Position numbers and translations under genes: made by a program
Notes under the pieces: model-generated
What the model saw: only the letters and a program-made list of their open reading frames with translations
The model's database searches: none
Told to the model about the DNA's origin: nothing
From: Xenococcaceae cyanobacterium MO_188.B19
Lineage (GTDB): Bacteria > Cyanobacteriota > Cyanobacteriia > Cyanobacteriales > Xenococcaceae
Reading direction: 5' to 3'
NCBI GenBank assembly: GCA_030065715.1
Contig: JASJDF010000001.1
Span: forward strand, 1-50,251
DNA length: 50,251 bases
Part shown: piece by piece, positions 13,617 to 32,830 of the stretch
How the letters are laid out: every line of letters starts with the position of its first letter
How positions within the stretch are numbered: the stretch's first letter is position 1

Positions 13617-16600
13617 ATGATGTCTACACCTGATTCTATGATTCCCCATAATCACGAAGGTCACAATCACGGTGGTGAGCCAATGCCACCGCTTCCAAAC
13701 CCAGAACCCTTAGCTTCTGGTGGTCAAATTTTAAAAGTAGATGGTACTACACAGAGAATAACAAACTTCGATCCAGCTAAAGATAAGCTCGACTTAGGTA
13801 CTGATTCCATACATAATCAGATAGCTATCGATACACCCGAAGGCATAGCTTTCCAAAATTTATTTACTCCAAGTAAATCTCTTACTCTTGTTGGTGTTTC
13901 TCTCAAAGACCTCAAAGCAGAGAACTTTACAGCAATATCAGATGCTCACTTACAGCAAGACCTCAGTGCTGCCTTAGCTTGGGAGAACGGTACTGGATAC
14001 GTCAGACCCAATACAGTATATATTCGTTCTCACGAACAGAATCTCCAAGAAGAAGTAGACTTCAACCCAGCTACAGACAAAATCAGTTTCTTCTACCTAA
14101 GTGTACGTGGAGATAATCAACTAAATTTTGCAGTGGAAGAAACTGCTAAAGGAGCTAGATTCTACAGCCCAATAACTAATCAAAGTATTACCCTCAAAGG
14201 AATCAAGTTTTCTGATTTGGATAGTTCGCACTTTGAGTGGAGAGCCAATCAACTAGAAGACAATATTGCTGACAGAATGGGGCTATCCGATAAAATAGTC
14301 GATTTTAGAATCGTTGATAGCAATGTGTTTAGCGGTAAGAGTGTTCCGATGGCAGGACTCGTGGATAGAGCGCCTTATCACTCACAGCCAGAATATACTG
14401 GTACAAGAATAGACTCAAATCCAGACCCAGTCGATCCAGTTGACCCAGTCGATCCAGTTGACCCAGTCGATCCAGTTGACCCAGTCGATCCAGTTGACCC
14501 AGTCGATCCAGTTGACCCAGTCGATCCAGTTGACCCAGTCGATCCAGTCGATCCAGTTGATCCCACACCTGGCAACTCAGAAGTAGATTTTGCAATTACT
14601 AATGATTGGGGTAGTGGTTATCAAGGTCAGGTAGAAATTAGCAATAATGATAGTAGTCAACTAAATGGTTGGACTCTGAAGTTTAAATTTTCTGGCAAAA
14701 TCAATCAAATTTGGAATGCGGAAATTGTCAGTCAAAATGGGAACACTTACATCATTCGCAACGCCTCCTACAATGGCACAGTCGCCTCTGGTGAAAAAGT
14801 CACCTTTGGTTTCATTGGAGAAGGTTCAGCATCCAACTTACCTGATGTATTTGAACTGAATGGAAAAGTAGTAGGAGAAACACCCACCACACCTACAGAC
14901 CCCGATCCCATGAAGTCAACAATTGCCGAGATTGTGGCAAAAAGTGGTGGAGAATTTGACAGCAACAACCAAGACTTCGATATTCTATTTCAAGCACTCG
15001 AAGCAGCAGGTCTTACTGATGCTGTAGCCGATCCAGCATCAGACTTAACAGTCTTTGCTCCTACTGATGCAGCTTTTATCAAATTAGCGCAAGACTTGGG
15101 CTATCAGGGCAATGATGAAACTGGTGCATACAATGCTATTGTGGGCGCACTAACAGAGTTAGGAAATGGCGACCCCATTCCTGTACTGCAAGATGTTTTG
15201 AAATATCATGTTTCTGCTGGAGCAAAAACTCTCAATGAAGTGAAGGGAGCTAATTCTGTCAATACATTGCTAGATGGTGCAAAGGTTACACCTAATGGGA
15301 ATACTTTAGGAGATAAGGAACCAGATTTAGCCGATCCCAAATTTGTTAATGGTTTAACCAACGTAGAAGCTAGTAACGGTATTATTCAAGGTATTGATCG
15401 AGTATTACTTCCTTTGGATCTTCCTGGTAATAACTCCACACCTACAGACCCCACTGACCCGACAAATCCTACAGATCCTAATCCACCGACAGGAAATAAT
15501 CCAGGAGCATTTAATTACGCTGAAGCAATACAAAAGTCATTCCTATTCTACGAAGCAAATCGATCGGGTGAACTACCAGCAGACAACAGAATTCCTTGGC
15601 GTGGTGATTCTGCCCTCACTGATGGCGCAGATGTAGGTCGGGACCTAACTGGTGGTTATTATGATGCAGGAGATCATGTCAAATTTGGTCTTCCTATGGC
15701 AGCAAGTATGACTATGCTCGCTTGGGGTGCGGATGAATATAGTGATGCCTATGAAAAGATTGGTCAGCAGGACGAAGTGTTAGATGCAGTTAAATGGGGA
15801 ACTGACTATATCCTTAAAGCCTATGACGATAAAGGCACAGCCGATGTTTCCGATGATGTGTTCTACGGACAAGTAGGTAATGGACAAGCAGATCATTCCT
15901 TCTGGGGTCCTCCAGAAATTATGACTATGGATCGACCTGCATACAAAGTTGACGCTCAAAACCCAGGTTCAGATTTGACTGGTGAATCTGCTGCTGCTTT
16001 AGCCTCAGCTTCAATTATTTTCCGTTCTAGTGATTCTGCTTATGCAGATAAGTTATTAGGTCAAGCTCAAAAGCTTTATGAATTTGCCGAAACCTACAAA
16101 GGTAAATATTCAGAATCCATTACTGATGCACGAAACTTCTACAATTCCTGGAGCGGTTATACTGACGATCTAGCTTGGGGAGCTACTTGGTTACACAAAG
16201 CTACTGAAGCAGCAGGTCAAACTGATACTCAATATCTTGCTAAAGCGGAACAATACTACCAAGATACCAATGGTGTTCAATATGCACCTTGGACTCAAAA
16301 CTGGGATGATAAAAAGTATGGTACTGCCATCTTACTTGCCCAAGAAACAGGAGATAATCAATATCAAATTCAAGTAGAAGGTTGGTTAGACCGTTGGATG
16401 ATAGATAGAAGCCAAGGCGGAATTCCTAAATATACTGAAGGAGGATTAGCTTGGTTAGATCAATGGGGAGCAAATCGTTATGCTGCTAACACAGCTATGC
16501 TTGCTGGTATCTATGCGGATACAGTAAATGACAAAGGTGGTCAGTACTCTCAGTTTGCTGAGAATCAAATCAACTATATGTTGGGAGATAATCCGAATAA

Positions 16601-17003
16601 CTTTAGTTATCAAATAGGTTTTGGTGATAATTATCCTCAAAATCCCCACCACCGAGGCGCACATGCTTCTCTCAATAACAATATCAATGGCGGTGAAACC
16701 AAACATATTCTGTATGGAGCGTTAGTGGGGGGACCCAGTCAACCTAATGACAGTGCTTACAATGACAGAAGAGATGATTATATCTCCAATGAAGTAGCGA
16801 CGGATTACAATGCTGGATTCACGGGAGCTTTGGCTTATTTAGCTAATAAACATGATGATATGCCTTTGGCTGATAGTGAAATTCCTAAGCTATTTGGTTC
16901 TGATACTACACCTCCAGCATCACCATTCGCATCGGATTCTTTCGACTCAGACTTTAACTCTCAAAATACAGATGATGTGTTTGCTCAATCATCTAACTTC
17001 TAA
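13617..17003 (+). CDS. Multidomain GH9 cellulase (CBM2, FAS1 and GH9 domains)
   Basis: The 1128-residue protein has a His-rich start ([10 protein letters not shown]), an unassigned beta-rich domain to about 265, a (DPV)n linker (about 270-316), a CBM2 cellulose-binding module (about 321-420, [16 protein letters not shown]), a fasciclin FAS1 domain (about 433-603, [11 protein letters not shown]), a PTDPT linker, and a GH9 catalytic domain (about 632-1085). GH9 signatures are intact: [15 protein letters not shown] with D683 and D686, NPHHRGAH with H1011/H1012, and the acid E1059 in [12 protein letters not shown]. It should cleave beta-1,4-glucan internally. No N-terminal signal peptide is seen, so export, perhaps by type I secretion, is open. 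The ATG ATG start leaves the first Met ambiguous. The gene sits in the plasmid-type block, suggesting acquisition by transfer. Confidence 0.93.
14424..14563 (+). repeat. 18-bp tandem repeat coding the DPV linker
   Basis: The unit GACCCAGTCGATCCAGTT repeats about seven times, nearly perfectly, with a slightly altered last unit. It encodes Asp-Pro-Val triplets joining the N-terminal domain to CBM2. Alternating GTCGAT and GTTGAC codons keep an 18-bp rather than 9-bp period. Near-identity at the DNA level points to recent slippage or unequal exchange, so copy number is likely to vary between strains. Confidence 0.95.
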
Positions 17004-17045: not shown

Positions 17046-17372
17046 AGGCGATCCAACAGTAAACGGACAAAAAACAACGCTCGACGTATAATTCGATAGA
17101 GTAAAATCCTGAAACCCTTATTCAGTTAACCTTTGACCAATTTTACTATCAGTACACTTTTTATTAGTTCAAAAAAACTACAAAAAGTTTCTGATAATTA
17201 TACGACCAGTTTTTTGATAGATAATTACTGTTTTTTCGTCGAATTATACGCTCAGTTAGCCAAAAGCAGACGTAGAACTTCCTTTATACGTACAGTTTTT
17301 CGATAATTCTGACTAAATAATTATAATTATACGCGCAGCGTTGTTTTCTGTCCGTTTACTGTTGGATCGCCT
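17046..17372. repeat. 327-bp element with 48-bp terminal inverted repeats and five CGTATAATT boxes
   Basis: The ends 17046-17093 and 17325-17372 are inverted copies: AGGCGATCCAACAGTAAACG and on through GGACA, AAAACAACGCT and CGTATAATT, with about four mismatches in 48 bp. Inside, the box CGTATAATT, preceded by AACTGNN or close variants, occurs on the minus strand at 17196-17204, 17242-17250, 17282-17290 (as CGTATAAAG) and 17325-17333, spaced 46, 40 and 43 bp, and once on the plus strand at 17085-17093. There is no coding capacity and no clear target-site duplication. It lies 52 bp from the stop of a short tyrosine recombinase. It could be a MITE, a recombinase attachment or resolution region, or an invertible segment. 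Confidence 0.85.
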
Positions 17373-18023: not shown

Positions 18024-18476
18024 TTAAAGAATTGAAGATTGAGTAGAGTTATAAATTCGAGATTCTTTGGATTTAGAGCGCAATGTTTTGAGAGATGACA
18101 CTAACATTGCTACAATTTCGTTAGTCTCCGCCATAAGACTTTGAAATTTTAGATTGATGATTGATGATTTTAGATTGTCAAAAAGCGATCGCTCTGTGCC
18201 TCGCTTTTCGAGAGGATGCAGCGATCGCCAAAAGTAGATCACCTTACTTAATTGGTCAATTACCAGTCGTTTCGTAAAACGAAATGAATCTAAAATCTGA
18301 AATCTCCAATCTACAATTGCAATTGCCCTATAGTTTGCTCCCACTGATGTGGCACATCTACATAACTGTTTTCCAATAACTTGTGCTTCCACCTTATCCT
18401 GGGGCAAGGCACTCACCAACCGAATCACCCTAATGGCTAATTTCTTTGTTCTCGCTTTGAACTCCGTTTTATCCAT
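18024..18476 (-). pseudogene. Four-helix-bundle (S23/IVP-type) protein with its middle replaced by repeat sequence
   Basis: Residues 1-51 (ending CATSVGANYRA) and about 114-135 (LMAETNEIVAMLVSSLKTLR) are the first and last parts of a four-helix-bundle protein of the 23S-intervening-sequence family, a fold shared with Avd proteins. The expected central helices, normally about 45 residues after NYRA, are absent. In their place are about 60 residues translated from dispersed-repeat DNA (18135-18335), including a HIP1-rich palindrome. The frame stays open, so a chimeric 150-residue protein could be made, but helices 2-3 of the bundle are lost. I treat it as an inactivated gene. Confidence 0.7.
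18181..18234. repeat. Small dispersed HIP1-bearing palindromic repeat
   Basis: The core GCGATCGCTCTGTGCCTCGC followed by TTTTCGAGAGGATGCAGCGATCGCC is flanked by HIP1 octamers in inverted orientation. The same GAGGCGCAGAGCGATCGC-type core occurs at 25974, 26539 and 32797. It sits inside the four-helix-bundle reading frame. Confidence 0.7.
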
Positions 18477-20403: not shown

Positions 20404-20716
20404 GGTTTCAGTTAACTCTTGACTTGACGATTTACTTAACTCACCATTATCTTCATTGGTATGAACAAAATCGGTGATCGTCCCCCAGATTGATGTACAA
20501 ACCGCTGTATTTTTTAACACTTTCCGGAAAAACAACGTTGAGGTATCATAAACCAAATAGGTCCAACTCAATAAATTATTTATTTTAAATCTTCAACTTG
20601 TAAAAGGTTCTCCAAAAGATATTAAACAGATTGTATTTATCATTAAATCGAAATAAATAACAGAATTAAGCTGTTTTTCTGTTGAATAAATTGAAATTTT
20701 AGATGAAAGTTCTGAT
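20404..20716. other. Gap with a possible decayed leftward reading frame
   Basis: A minus-strand frame from 20571 (SWTYLVYDTSTLFFRKVLKN, then TAVCTSIWGTITDFVHTNED) looks protein-like in composition. It runs into the 3' end of the RHH gene in antisense, so it is at best a gene fragment. The remaining 20580-20716 is AT-rich and holds the promoter region of the pentapeptide gene. Confidence 0.3.
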
Positions 20717-21733
20717 GTGGAAGAAACTATCGAATCTAATAAATACAGTTTAGTCAAAGAGATTATTAGCCAACCAGTTAAAGGTCGAGATTTAACTGGT
20801 GCCGACCTGAGTCGTGGCATCCTCAGTCATGCCGACCTCAGAGGTGCCAACCTCAGAGGTGCCGACCTGAGTCATGCCATCCTCATTGATACCAATCTCA
20901 GTCGTGCCAACCTCAGAGGTGCCGACCTTAGTAATGCCGACCTCAGAGGTGCCGACCTCAGAGGTGCCGACCTGAGTCATGCCATCCTCATTGATACCAA
21001 TCTCATTGGTGCCAATCTCATTGGTGCCAATCTCAATGATGCCAACCTCAGTCGTATCAATCTCATTGGTGCCAATCTCATTGGTGCCGACCTGAGTCAT
21101 GCCATCCTCAGTCATGCCATCCTTAAAGGTACCGAGTTGAGTAGTACCAATCTCATTGGTGCTAACCTCAGAGGTACTGACCTGAGTCGTGTCAATTTCA
21201 TTGGTGCTGACCTGAGTCGTGTCAATTTCGTTGGTGCTGACTTGAGTCGTGCTGACCTGAGTCGTGCCAATCTCATTAGTGCTGACCTGAGTCGTGCTGA
21301 CCTGAGTGATACCAGACTCAGAGGTAGCAATCTGAGTTGTACTGACCTGAGTCGTGCCAATCTCATTGGTGCTGACCTCAGTCATGCTGACCTGAGTGAT
21401 GCTAGGCTGAGAGGTGCCAGGCTGAGTCGTGCCAATCTCATTGGTGCCAATCTAAGTCGTGTCAATTTCATTGGTGCCAATCTCATTGGTGCCAATCTAA
21501 GTCGTGTCAATTTCATTAGTGCCAATCTAAGTCGTGTCAATCTCATTGGTGCCAATCTCAGTGATGCCAACCTCAGTCGTGTCAATTTCATTGGTGCCAA
21601 CCTCAGTCGTGTCAATTTCATTGGTGCCAATCTCAATGATGCCAACCTCAGAGGTGCCATTTTTGGAGATAACCAAGGTATTTCCGAAGGACTAAAACAA
21701 AATTTGATTACACGAGGAGCTAAATTTGACTAG
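20717..21733 (+). CDS. Pentapeptide-repeat protein, 338 aa
   Basis: After a 25-residue N-terminal helix region (EETIESNKYSLVKEIISQ) the protein is almost entirely A(D/N)LXX repeats, about 57 in a row, ending FGDNQGISEGLKQNLITRGA, the usual capping tail. These form a right-handed quadrilateral beta helix. Frequent repeats are LIGAN, LSRVN, LSHAD and LRGAD. The DNA itself is a near-perfect 15-bp repeat. The start is a GTG; an in-frame TAA at 20687 limits upstream extension and no in-frame ATG precedes the repeats. Function in cyanobacteria is generally unknown; there is no membrane segment or enzymatic domain. Confidence 0.9.
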   Translation: MEETIESNKYSLVKEIISQPVKGRDLTGADLSRGILSHADLRGANLRGADLSHAILIDTNLSRANLRGADLSNADLRGADLRGADLSHAILIDTNLIGANLIGANLNDANLSRINLIGANLIGADLSHAILSHAILKGTELSSTNLIGANLRGTDLSRVNFIGADLSRVNFVGADLSRADLSRANLISADLSRADLSDTRLRGSNLSCTDLSRANLIGADLSHADLSDARLRGARLSRANLIGANLSRVNFIGANLIGANLSRVNFISANLSRVNLIGANLSDANLSRVNFIGANLSRVNFIGANLNDANLRGAIFGDNQGISEGLKQNLITRGAKFD

Positions 21734-25151: not shown

Positions 25152-27848
25152 ATGTCTAATAGGTCAATGACTAAAAGAAGATTCAATTCAGTTCATCACA
25201 ATTTTTGGGGAATTTTGTTGGTTTTAGGTGCAATTACTTCTGTAACACCAGTATTGGCACAATCAACATTGGTAGCAAGGGAAATATCAATTTCGTCTCA
25301 CTCTAGTTCGGCTTCTGTCTCGACTCTCCTCAGACAAGGTAAAACAGCCTATGAAGCAGGTAACTATACTAAAGCAACAGCGACTTGGCAAAAAGCCTAT
25401 CAACAATATCAGGCTGAAGGAAATTTGATTAATCAGGCTCTTAGCCTGAGTTATCTCTCTTTAAGCAGCCAGAAACAGGGTAATTGGCAAGCAGCAAAGG
25501 AATATATCGCTCAAAGCTTAGATATCTTAGAATCTGAACCCAAATTAAAAGCTAAAAATTTGGCAATATACGCTCAAGTTATTAATACTCAGGGGAGATT
25601 ACAGTTAGCCACCGGCAAAATAGAAGCAGCCATTGTAAGTTGGAAACAAGCTGCTGAAGCTTATCAAAAAGCTGGGGATGATATTGGGACTTTGGGCAGT
25701 CAGATTAATCAAGCTCAAGCTTTACAAAGCCTGGGATTATATCGACGCTCTCAGAAATTATTAATTGAAATTGCCTCCCAACTCCAAGAAAAACCCGATT
25801 CAAGGCTAAAAATATCAGGATTGAGAACTTTGGGGATTGCATTACAAGTTAGTGGCAATCTCAATGATGCTCAAGAAATACTCCAAGAGAGTCTGGCTAT
25901 TTCTGAAAAACTCAATTTACCAGAAGAAAGCAGTGCGACTTTATTGAGCCTAGGGGATACAGTAAGAGCTTCTGGCGATCTCCCCAAGGGTGAGGCGCAG
26001 AGCGATCGCAATAAACGACGTAATTCTGATAATACACCAGCCTATGCTTTTTATGAACAAGCAGCAGCAATTACTTCACAACCTTTATTAAAAGTAGAGG
26101 CTCAATTAAATCAACTTAGTACTTTGATTGCTTTTGAGCAATGGCGAGCAGCCAAAAACTTAGTCCCTGAAATTCAGACTAATATTAGTCAATTATCCAA
26201 TAGAGCAAATCGACGTTCAATTTATGCTCAAATTAACCTAGCTAACAGTTTAATTGATTTAGCAGCTCAAGATTCTGTGAATCCAACTTATCTCAACCAA
26301 TCTCAAAACCTATTGACTAAAGCTGTTGAACAAGCTGAACAGCTTCAAGATATTAAAGCCGAGTCTTATGGTTTGGGAATCCTGGGTCACTTGTCTGAAC
26401 AACGGCAACAATGGTCATTGGGGCAAAAATATACGGAGCAAGCTATCGACTTAGCTCAAAGAATTAATGAACCTGAACTTATTTACCAATGGCAATGGCA
26501 ACTAGGTAGATTACAAGTAGCCCAGAATAATTATAGCAGCGGGATCTCGCCAGAGGCGAGGCGCAGAGCGATCGCGTCTTATTCAGAAGCAGTTAATGCT
26601 CTAGAATCCCTTCGTAGCGATTTGGCATTAACCAATCTAGATGTACAGTATTCCTTTCGGGATGGTGTTGAACCAGTCTATCGAGAGCTAGTCAGATTAC
26701 TACTACAACCCGAAAATAATCAAGCAATTAGTCAGGCTAATTTAATCCGAGCTAGAGATACTATTGAATCTTTGCAATTAGCGGAATTAAATGATTTTTT
26801 TCGCGAAGCCTGCCTTGATGCTACTCCTATTTCCATCGAAAATGTTGATCCTGAAGCTGCGGTAATTTATCCGATTATTTTACGCGATCGCTTAGAAGTA
26901 ATACTTAGTTTACCAGGAAAACCCTTACAACACTACTCTACCCCAATTTCCCAAACTGAATTGGAAGCAGAAATTCAAGAACTGCGTGAAACAGTGGTGA
27001 TTAGGAGTCAACGCACATTTCGTAAACCTGCCCAAAATTTATATGACTGGTTAATTCGTCCGACTTTACAGGATTTAGTTGCCAGTGAAATTAAAACTTT
27101 AGTCTTTGTCCCTGATGGCAGTTTTCGTAATATTCCTATGGGAGTTTTACATGACAAAGAAAATTACTTAATCGAAAAGTATAATATCGCTCTTACCCCA
27201 GGATTACAGTTATTAGCACCTCGTCCTTTAAAAGAATTAGAACTAAAAACTTTAGCAGCAGGTTTAACAGAAGAAAGACAAGGTTTTGCCCCTCTTGATT
27301 ATGTTCAAGTTGAATTAGAAGATATCCAAAAACAATTGGACAGTACTCTTTTAATCGATCAAGAATTTACTAGAGAGAAGTTACAAAATACTATGGAATC
27401 TCAGAGTTATCCCATAGTCCACATTGCCACTCATGGTCAATTTAGTTCGATTCTAGAGGATACTTTTTTATTAGCTTGGGACAGTCGTATTCAGATTAAT
27501 CAACTCAGTTCTATTCTGCAAAACCGCAATCTTCCAGAACAACAAGCGATTGAACTTTTAGTACTAAGTGCTTGTGAAACTGCGGTGGGAGATGACCGAG
27601 CAGCTTTGGGTTTGGCTGGTATGGCAGTTAGGGCTGGAGCTAGAAGTACTTTGGCTACTTTATGGTCAGTTAACGATCAAGCCACCGCCTTAGCAATTAA
27701 TAATTTTTATCAGCAATTAACTAAGCCTACAGTTCCGATGACGAAAACTGAGGCTCTAAGGGAAGCCCAATTAACATTAATTAATTTGCCTAGATTTAAT
27801 CATCCTTACTACTGGTCTTCCTTTATCTTAATTGGTAATTGGTTGTAA
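25152..27848 (+). CDS. TPR-CHAT protein, exported
   Basis: After a Sec signal (hydrophobic WGILLVLGAITSVTPVLA, cleavage near AQ) there are TPR repeats (about 50-470) and a C-terminal CHAT domain (about 590-898). CHAT is a caspase-like cysteine protease fold; the catalytic pair is present as H761 (HIATHGQ) and C808 (LSACETAVG). In cyanobacteria, exported TPR-CHAT proteins are frequent and mostly uncharacterised, while relatives in CRISPR-Craspase are activated proteases. Two HIP1-bearing small repeats are inserted in frame near residues 275-287 and 463-475, adding surface-loop-like sequence to the TPR part. A second Met (MTKRRF) lies five codons in. Substrate unknown. Confidence 0.9.
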   Translation: MSNRSMTKRRFNSVHHNFWGILLVLGAITSVTPVLAQSTLVAREISISSHSSSASVSTLLRQGKTAYEAGNYTKATATWQKAYQQYQAEGNLINQALSLSYLSLSSQKQGNWQAAKEYIAQSLDILESEPKLKAKNLAIYAQVINTQGRLQLATGKIEAAIVSWKQAAEAYQKAGDDIGTLGSQINQAQALQSLGLYRRSQKLLIEIASQLQEKPDSRLKISGLRTLGIALQVSGNLNDAQEILQESLAISEKLNLPEESSATLLSLGDTVRASGDLPKGEAQSDRNKRRNSDNTPAYAFYEQAAAITSQPLLKVEAQLNQLSTLIAFEQWRAAKNLVPEIQTNISQLSNRANRRSIYAQINLANSLIDLAAQDSVNPTYLNQSQNLLTKAVEQAEQLQDIKAESYGLGILGHLSEQRQQWSLGQKYTEQAIDLAQRINEPELIYQWQWQLGRLQVAQNNYSSGISPEARRRAIASYSEAVNALESLRSDLALTNLDVQYSFRDGVEPVYRELVRLLLQPENNQAISQANLIRARDTIESLQLAELNDFFREACLDATPISIENVDPEAAVIYPIILRDRLEVILSLPGKPLQHYSTPISQTELEAEIQELRETVVIRSQRTFRKPAQNLYDWLIRPTLQDLVASEIKTLVFVPDGSFRNIPMGVLHDKENYLIEKYNIALTPGLQLLAPRPLKELELKTLAAGLTEERQGFAPLDYVQVELEDIQKQLDSTLLIDQEFTREKLQNTMESQSYPIVHIATHGQFSSILEDTFLLAWDSRIQINQLSSILQNRNLPEQQAIELLVLSACETAVGDDRAALGLAGMAVRAGARSTLATLWSVNDQATALAINNFYQQLTKPTVPMTKTEALREAQLTLINLPRFNHPYYWSSFILIGNWL
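25974..26009. repeat. Small dispersed repeat inserted in frame in the CHAT gene (copy 1)
   Basis: GGCGATCTCCCCAAGGGTGA then GGCGCAGAGCGATCGC, 36 bp, encodes about GDLPKGEAQSDR between two TPR helices. It shares GAGGCGCAGAGCGATCGC with the copy at 26539 and the inverted cores at 18181 and 32797. Confidence 0.7.
26539..26575. repeat. Small dispersed repeat inserted in frame in the CHAT gene (copy 2)
   Basis: GCGGGATCTCGCCAGAGGCG then AGGCGCAGAGCGATCGC encodes SGISPEARRRAIA in a TPR region. It is a second copy of the same repeat family within one gene, again keeping the frame. Confidence 0.7.
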
Positions 27849-32796: not shown

Positions 32797-32830
32797 TAGC
32801 GATCACGCAGTGCCTCGCTTCGCGAGAAAG
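32797..32830. repeat. Small dispersed HIP1-like repeat
   Basis: TAGCGATCACGCAGTGCCTC then GCTTCGCGAGAAAG, another inverted copy of the repeat core seen at 18181, 25974 and 26539. The HIP1 octamer is mutated (GCGATCAC). Confidence 0.55.

Follow-up and report, generated by a model that had tools for sequence, protein, structure and literature searches.

The question raised by the gene at 25152-27848 (+) is how a small repeat can have entered the same coding sequence twice without destroying it. This gene lies in the window, by which we mean the whole stretch of 50,251 nucleotides of Xenococcaceae cyanobacterium MO_188.B19 that was analysed (contig 248 of a source genome of 4.67 Mb and 76% completeness, whose nearest relatives among named genomes are metagenome-assembled Xenococcaceae). 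It encodes a TPR and CHAT domain protein of 898 aa, in which the CHAT domain is C-terminal and the reading frame is uninterrupted across both of the 27-nt insertions discussed here; some 20 homologues of the protein are found within one incomplete genome (G000). Repeats of other kinds also occur in the window, including a MITE-like structure at 17046-17372 (inverted arms of 48 nt, 92% complementary, with a spacing of 231 nt), tandem 9-bp repeats with an Asp-Pro-Val motif at 14406-14590 within the gene 13617-17003, and a long array of 15-bp repeats at 20684-21700, likely a pentapeptide-repeat gene.

Copies in the window and their empty sites

A preliminary description of this DNA had drawn attention to a core present twice in the CHAT gene, and GAGGCGCAGAGCGATCGC is indeed exact at 25992-26009 and 26558-26575, both on the plus strand, with 0 matches in shuffled sequence. 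The same core had been placed, inverted, at 18181 and 32797. The first of these stands as a copy with one mismatch at 18185-18202 (-), which has in common with both CHAT copies an uncommon AGA loop, but the second, a minus-strand GCGAGGCACTGCGTGATCGC whose 5' side lacks GCG, is a diverged member and not the same core (Table 1).

Table 1. Copies of the repeat in the window, with covariance-model scores
Feature	Positions	Strand	Score	Description
Insertion 1	25978..26004	+	50.5 bits (model R1)	27-nt ATCTCCCCAAGGGTGAGGCGCAGAGCG between GCG (25975-25977) and ATCGC (26005-26009) of a HIP1 site
Insertion 2	26544..26570	+	50.8 bits (model R1)	27-nt ATCTCGCCAGAGGCGAGGCGCAGAGCG between GGG (26541-26543; one change from the GCG of the 5' HIP1 half) and ATCGC (26571-26575)
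Diverged copy	18185..18228	-	18.7 bits, E 0.024	Flanked by two HIP1 octamers
Diverged copy	32797..32824	-	Under threshold	CTCGC-GAA-GCGAG, GCAC-TGC-GTG, ATCGC; 5' HIP1 half missing

Relative to the nearest orthologue (L004, 90% identical), in which the empty site reads GGCGATCGC, insertion 1 amounts to an additional 27 bp. Insertion 2 adds exactly nine residues, found in the window protein alone when this is compared with 19 homologues, and missing also from the paralogue; at this second site the nearest orthologue reads GCGATTGC, and HIP1, GCGATCGC, stands there in most of the homologues that were compared at the DNA level. Each CHAT insertion is, on these alignments, exactly 27 bp or 9 codons long and not the 12-13 codons originally proposed. 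The proposal that a HIP1-linked repeat had been inserted in frame is borne out by the open frame and by the empty or one-off HIP1 that near relatives have at both places, and the same extra residues, whose presence in orthologues had been named as the finding that would speak against it, are missing from the 19 homologues at site 2 and from L004 at site 1. Counts made against distant proteins overstate insertion 1, because it adjoins an older clade-specific extension of at least 8 codons, which the window has in common with L004 and L005 as well as with the paralogue and which is missing in more distant homologues, so that at site 1 those outside the clade lack 8 codons in addition to the repeat. 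The extension itself, 8-11 codons long, lies at the TPR turn of insertion 1 (window 25976-26040, L005, L038) and is common to the clade and the paralogue.

A further exact pair is provided by scpB (Pfam SMC_ScpB), which in the source genome contains a 27-bp insert at a place where a congener (G003) has GGCGATCGCC. The exact empty/filled pairs, three in number (the two CHAT sites and scpB), are compatible with insertion between HIP1 nucleotides 3 and 4. In a TPR/glycosyltransferase-2 gene a copy is common to the source genome and G003 and is missing in two other genomes, G001 and G002.

Where the added residues fall in the protein can be judged from an AlphaFold model, although its mean pLDDT of 55.5 reflects good confidence over the TPR part alone, so that the placement at turns is indicative. 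Insert 1 (residues 276-285) maps to loop 276-295, which separates two helices and is modelled with low confidence, and for insert 2 (465-473) the position is the turn and N-terminal end of helix 467-492; nine extra residues can apparently be tolerated at such turns between TPR helices, where both CHAT insertions fall. Moreover, GCGATCGC read in one frame spells Ala-Ile-Ala, which in many homologues is the start of TPR helix B, and TPR genes are therefore likely hosts, which would offer HIP1 targets at exactly such turns.

Fold, boundaries and dispersal

The consensus of the repeat is ATC-TCGCC-nnn-GGCGA-GGCGC-nnn-GCG, placed between the HIP1 halves GCG and ATCGC, and comprises two adjacent hairpins, the first of 6 bp with a 3-nt loop and the second of 3 bp with a 3-nt loop. 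Both are backed by compensatory changes, with 97% of cells pairing and with pairs changing on both sides at 5/6 positions of the first helix and 2/3 of the second. In an alignment (A3) which takes in the more diverged units found with the covariance model, covariation scores 0.469, compared with 0.159 after shuffling, none of 500 shuffles reaches the observed value, and the signal is lost when the pairing partners are slid. Since the 3' GCG changes together with the inner strand (CAC...GTG, CTC...GAG, CGT...ACG), as for example in GGCACTGCGTGATCGC, it belongs to the element and the following ATCGC to the host, which sets the right junction at GCG|ATCGC. Of the 101 copies analysed, which come from the source and relative genomes, 82 have an insert of 27 nt and the others one of 25-30 nt. 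Tandem or nested units have 50-55 nt between the HIP1 halves (L215, L219-L225); the tandems of 52-55 nt look like insertions into an existing copy, and some of them have a different but paired stem. One double copy of 54 nt preserves the reading frame of a long gene resembling a hybrid sensor kinase/response regulator.

How widely the repeat is dispersed is easily underestimated, because its stems vary and a simple core search of the source genome finds three copies only. By covariance model this genome has 19 copies, the congener G001 61 and G013 36, while G006, a member of the family which is rich in HIP1, has 0. When the source genome and 60 relatives were searched by pattern, 17 of the 60 had matches, the reversed pattern giving 0 matches in the same set; the pattern required the HIP1 parts, so that these matches cover HIP1-flanked copies alone. 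Class-wide searches outside the family returned stemless chance matches only, except in the order-mate G049, and the exact sequence type is missing from the sampled genomes of an order-mate family (f33) which is probably Nostocaceae. Plasmids searched by BLAST with a query of 35 nt returned weak matches in Stanieria together with chance matches, a search of Rfam gave no match, and a generic search for split HIP1 sites was abandoned as swamped by chance HIP1 pairs.

These data also bear on an alternative, that nothing has moved and that local duplication at HIP1, or slippage there during replication, produced the insertions, the hairpin having grown in place or having been copied between the CHAT sites. 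The AGA loop common to both CHAT copies and the copy at 18185 could be so read, and one CHAT copy may be the source of the other. However, many genomes contain the structured element, at some 100 loci unrelated to one another, no fewer than two unrelated genes (CHAT and scpB) have exact empty sites, and for one genome (G009) nine identical copies are listed, each at a different locus. The dispersal of the copies largely refutes local duplication, which we regard as very improbable.

Length, frame and selection in genes

Given a mobile repeat of this length, one question is whether its compatibility with coding sequence is a property of the repeat, a consequence of selection or both. Flanks were taken for nearly all copies, and genic status was assigned from 180-bp flanks with a codon-usage classifier rather than a gene finder, with one locus (L095) left out of the counts. 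All 28 of the 28 copies in continuous coding frames are 27 nt long, as against 54 of the remaining 73, of which the other 19 measure 25, 28, 29 or 30 nt (Fisher p 0.0026, and p 0.001 to 0.005 with other flank sizes and thresholds); these length and frame statistics, however, treat as separate observations copies which within a genome are not independent, one genome contributing many identical copies. Copies are also fewer in genes than expected, 28/101 being genic, whereas 99/177 of the HIP1 sites at these loci are (odds ratio 0.30, p 6e-6).

Two inferences follow. Because 27 nt prevails also in copies outside genes, frame-neutrality is built into the length of the fold; and because genic copies are all 27 nt long and fewer than expected, selection acts too. 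The preliminary description had offered selection on survivors and a repeat adapted to be translated as its two options, the first of which is upheld by the length and depletion data just given. What it overlooked is that the two-hairpin fold is itself 27 nt even outside genes, and this explains most of the pattern.

The second option, in which both the length and the stop-poor sequence would have been selected for life in genes as a peptide module, has several observations in its favour: 27 nt is frame-neutral, stops occur in 54 of 606 element frames (9%) compared with 18% in shuffles, a gene accommodates the 54-nt double in frame and the 52-nt doubles lie outside genes, and a Nostocaceae element of 24-26 nt which also splits HIP1 (see below) has 0/10 copies inside genes. 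On the other hand, copies of the CHAT element are depleted in genes, those outside genes are mostly 27 nt too, and a GC-rich two-hairpin sequence is stop-poor in any case. Further, genic copies use all six element frames in the proportions set by HIP1 itself, the gene-strand HIP1 frames being (12, 4, 12) for filled sites and (175, 35, 130) for HIP1 in genes (chi-square p=0.63), and the insert peptides vary by frame, as with DLPKGEAQS at site 1 and ISPEARRRA at site 2. Adaptation to one way of translation does not fit these frame and peptide data, and we consider a translation-adapted repeat very unlikely.

Related elements and the mode of movement

Small mobile repeats have precedents among the cyanobacteria. 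Elhai et al. 2008 (Genome Res) reportedly described families of small dispersed repeats of 21-27 nt with compensatory changes and recent mobility, one of which, SDR5, is said to occur inside HIP1 only. The insertion point of SDR5 is given as lying precisely between HIP1 nucleotides 3 and 4 (Elhai 2015, PMC4390886). The features compared are insertion point, very small size and fold, and in these the CHAT element resembles SDR5; its 27 nt in 82/101 copies and its compensatory structure agree with the SDR5 pattern. As to occurrence inside HIP1, the copies were gathered with a pattern that includes HIP1 parts, and the copy at 32797 has no 5' HIP1 half. The CHAT element works like SDR5, to which it is probably related.

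Taken together, the exact empty and filled sites, the single insertion point, the covarying hairpins, the many copies and the self-tandems argue, with a probability that we put at about 0.8, that the CHAT repeat belongs among the very small, non-autonomous mobile repeats of which SDR5 is an example, HIP1-precise, frame-neutral and filtered by selection. Mechanistically, the 27-nt two-hairpin unit inserts exactly between HIP1 nucleotides 3 and 4 (GCG|ATCGC), and it would be copied through a folded single-stranded intermediate, which could be RNA or DNA, by a putative HIP1-cutting enzyme of the host or of the element. An insertion in a gene adds nine residues in whichever frame HIP1 is read, since the 27 nt of the unit are divisible by three and contain few stop codons, and frameshifting insertions and those harmful to the protein are cleared by selection.

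Elements of other bacteria share some of these properties. Rickettsia palindromic elements are mobile palindromic repeats found in frame in conserved protein genes and between genes (PMC2229807), as is the CHAT element, and are 105-146 bp long with terminal inverted repeats (PMC2229807). They are four to five times as long and have no HIP1 target, whereas the CHAT element has 27 nt, two short internal hairpins and is read in six frames. REP and REPIN sequences with their RAYT transposases are likewise hairpin repeats of tiny size, for which movement in single-stranded form has been proposed (PMC3116915), but REPs are mostly extragenic, tagged and arranged as doublets, and have no HIP1 target.

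If the element were REP/REPIN-like and its single-stranded hairpin were the substrate on which a RAYT (Y1) transposase acts to move it, this would agree with the hairpin ends, the precise target and the lack of an obvious target duplication, and Y1_Tnp genes are present in most relatives. Among the genomes compared no mobilising enzyme was identified, counts of the Y1 transposase family (PF01797) having a positive but weak correlation with copy number (Spearman 0.44, p 0.02, uncorrected for relatedness) and tracking it poorly: G020 has 18 Y1 genes and 0 elements, and G011, in reverse, 22 copies and 3 PF01797 matches only. In addition, the GTAG and CGTC tags are both missing, and the CHAT element is a single compact unit targeted to HIP1, not a REP doublet, such that movement by RAYT appears unlikely.

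A closer comparison is afforded by a second HIP1-splitting hairpin element, GCGATGGCACnnnGTGCCCGCCnnnGCGATCGC, with inserts of 24-26 nt, which is present in genomes of f33 and in a Nostoc plasmid (L229-L238; the Nostocaceae-like genomes G171, G183 and G241 and the plasmid pNsp_b); 150 kb of Nostoc ATCC 53789 plasmids yielded this Nostocaceae type. It differs from the CHAT element, which at 27 nt is nearly confined to Xenococcaceae, in stem and length. The GCGATGGCACnnnGTGCCCGCCnnnGCGATCGC element may well be SDR5 proper, and the CHAT element would then be its 27-nt Xenococcaceae counterpart. One could go further and suppose, as a conjecture that we think quite unlikely, that a HIP1-targeted repeat shifted from the Nostocaceae-type 24-26 nt to 27 nt, and would thereby have become frame-neutral and nearly stop-free, persisting in genes as a recurrent source of nine-residue protein insertions.

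The CHAT gene and scpB supply clean pairs of empty and filled sites for a mobile unit that ranks among the smallest on record, and the relatives, with 0 to 61 copies, constitute a panel in which the copying enzyme can be sought. The two causes of frame-neutral insertion, the built-in length of the fold and purifying selection, are told apart with numbers, and in these cyanobacteria a HIP1-targeted repeat enters protein genes and leaves them unbroken, examples being scpB and a gene with a formyltransferase domain.
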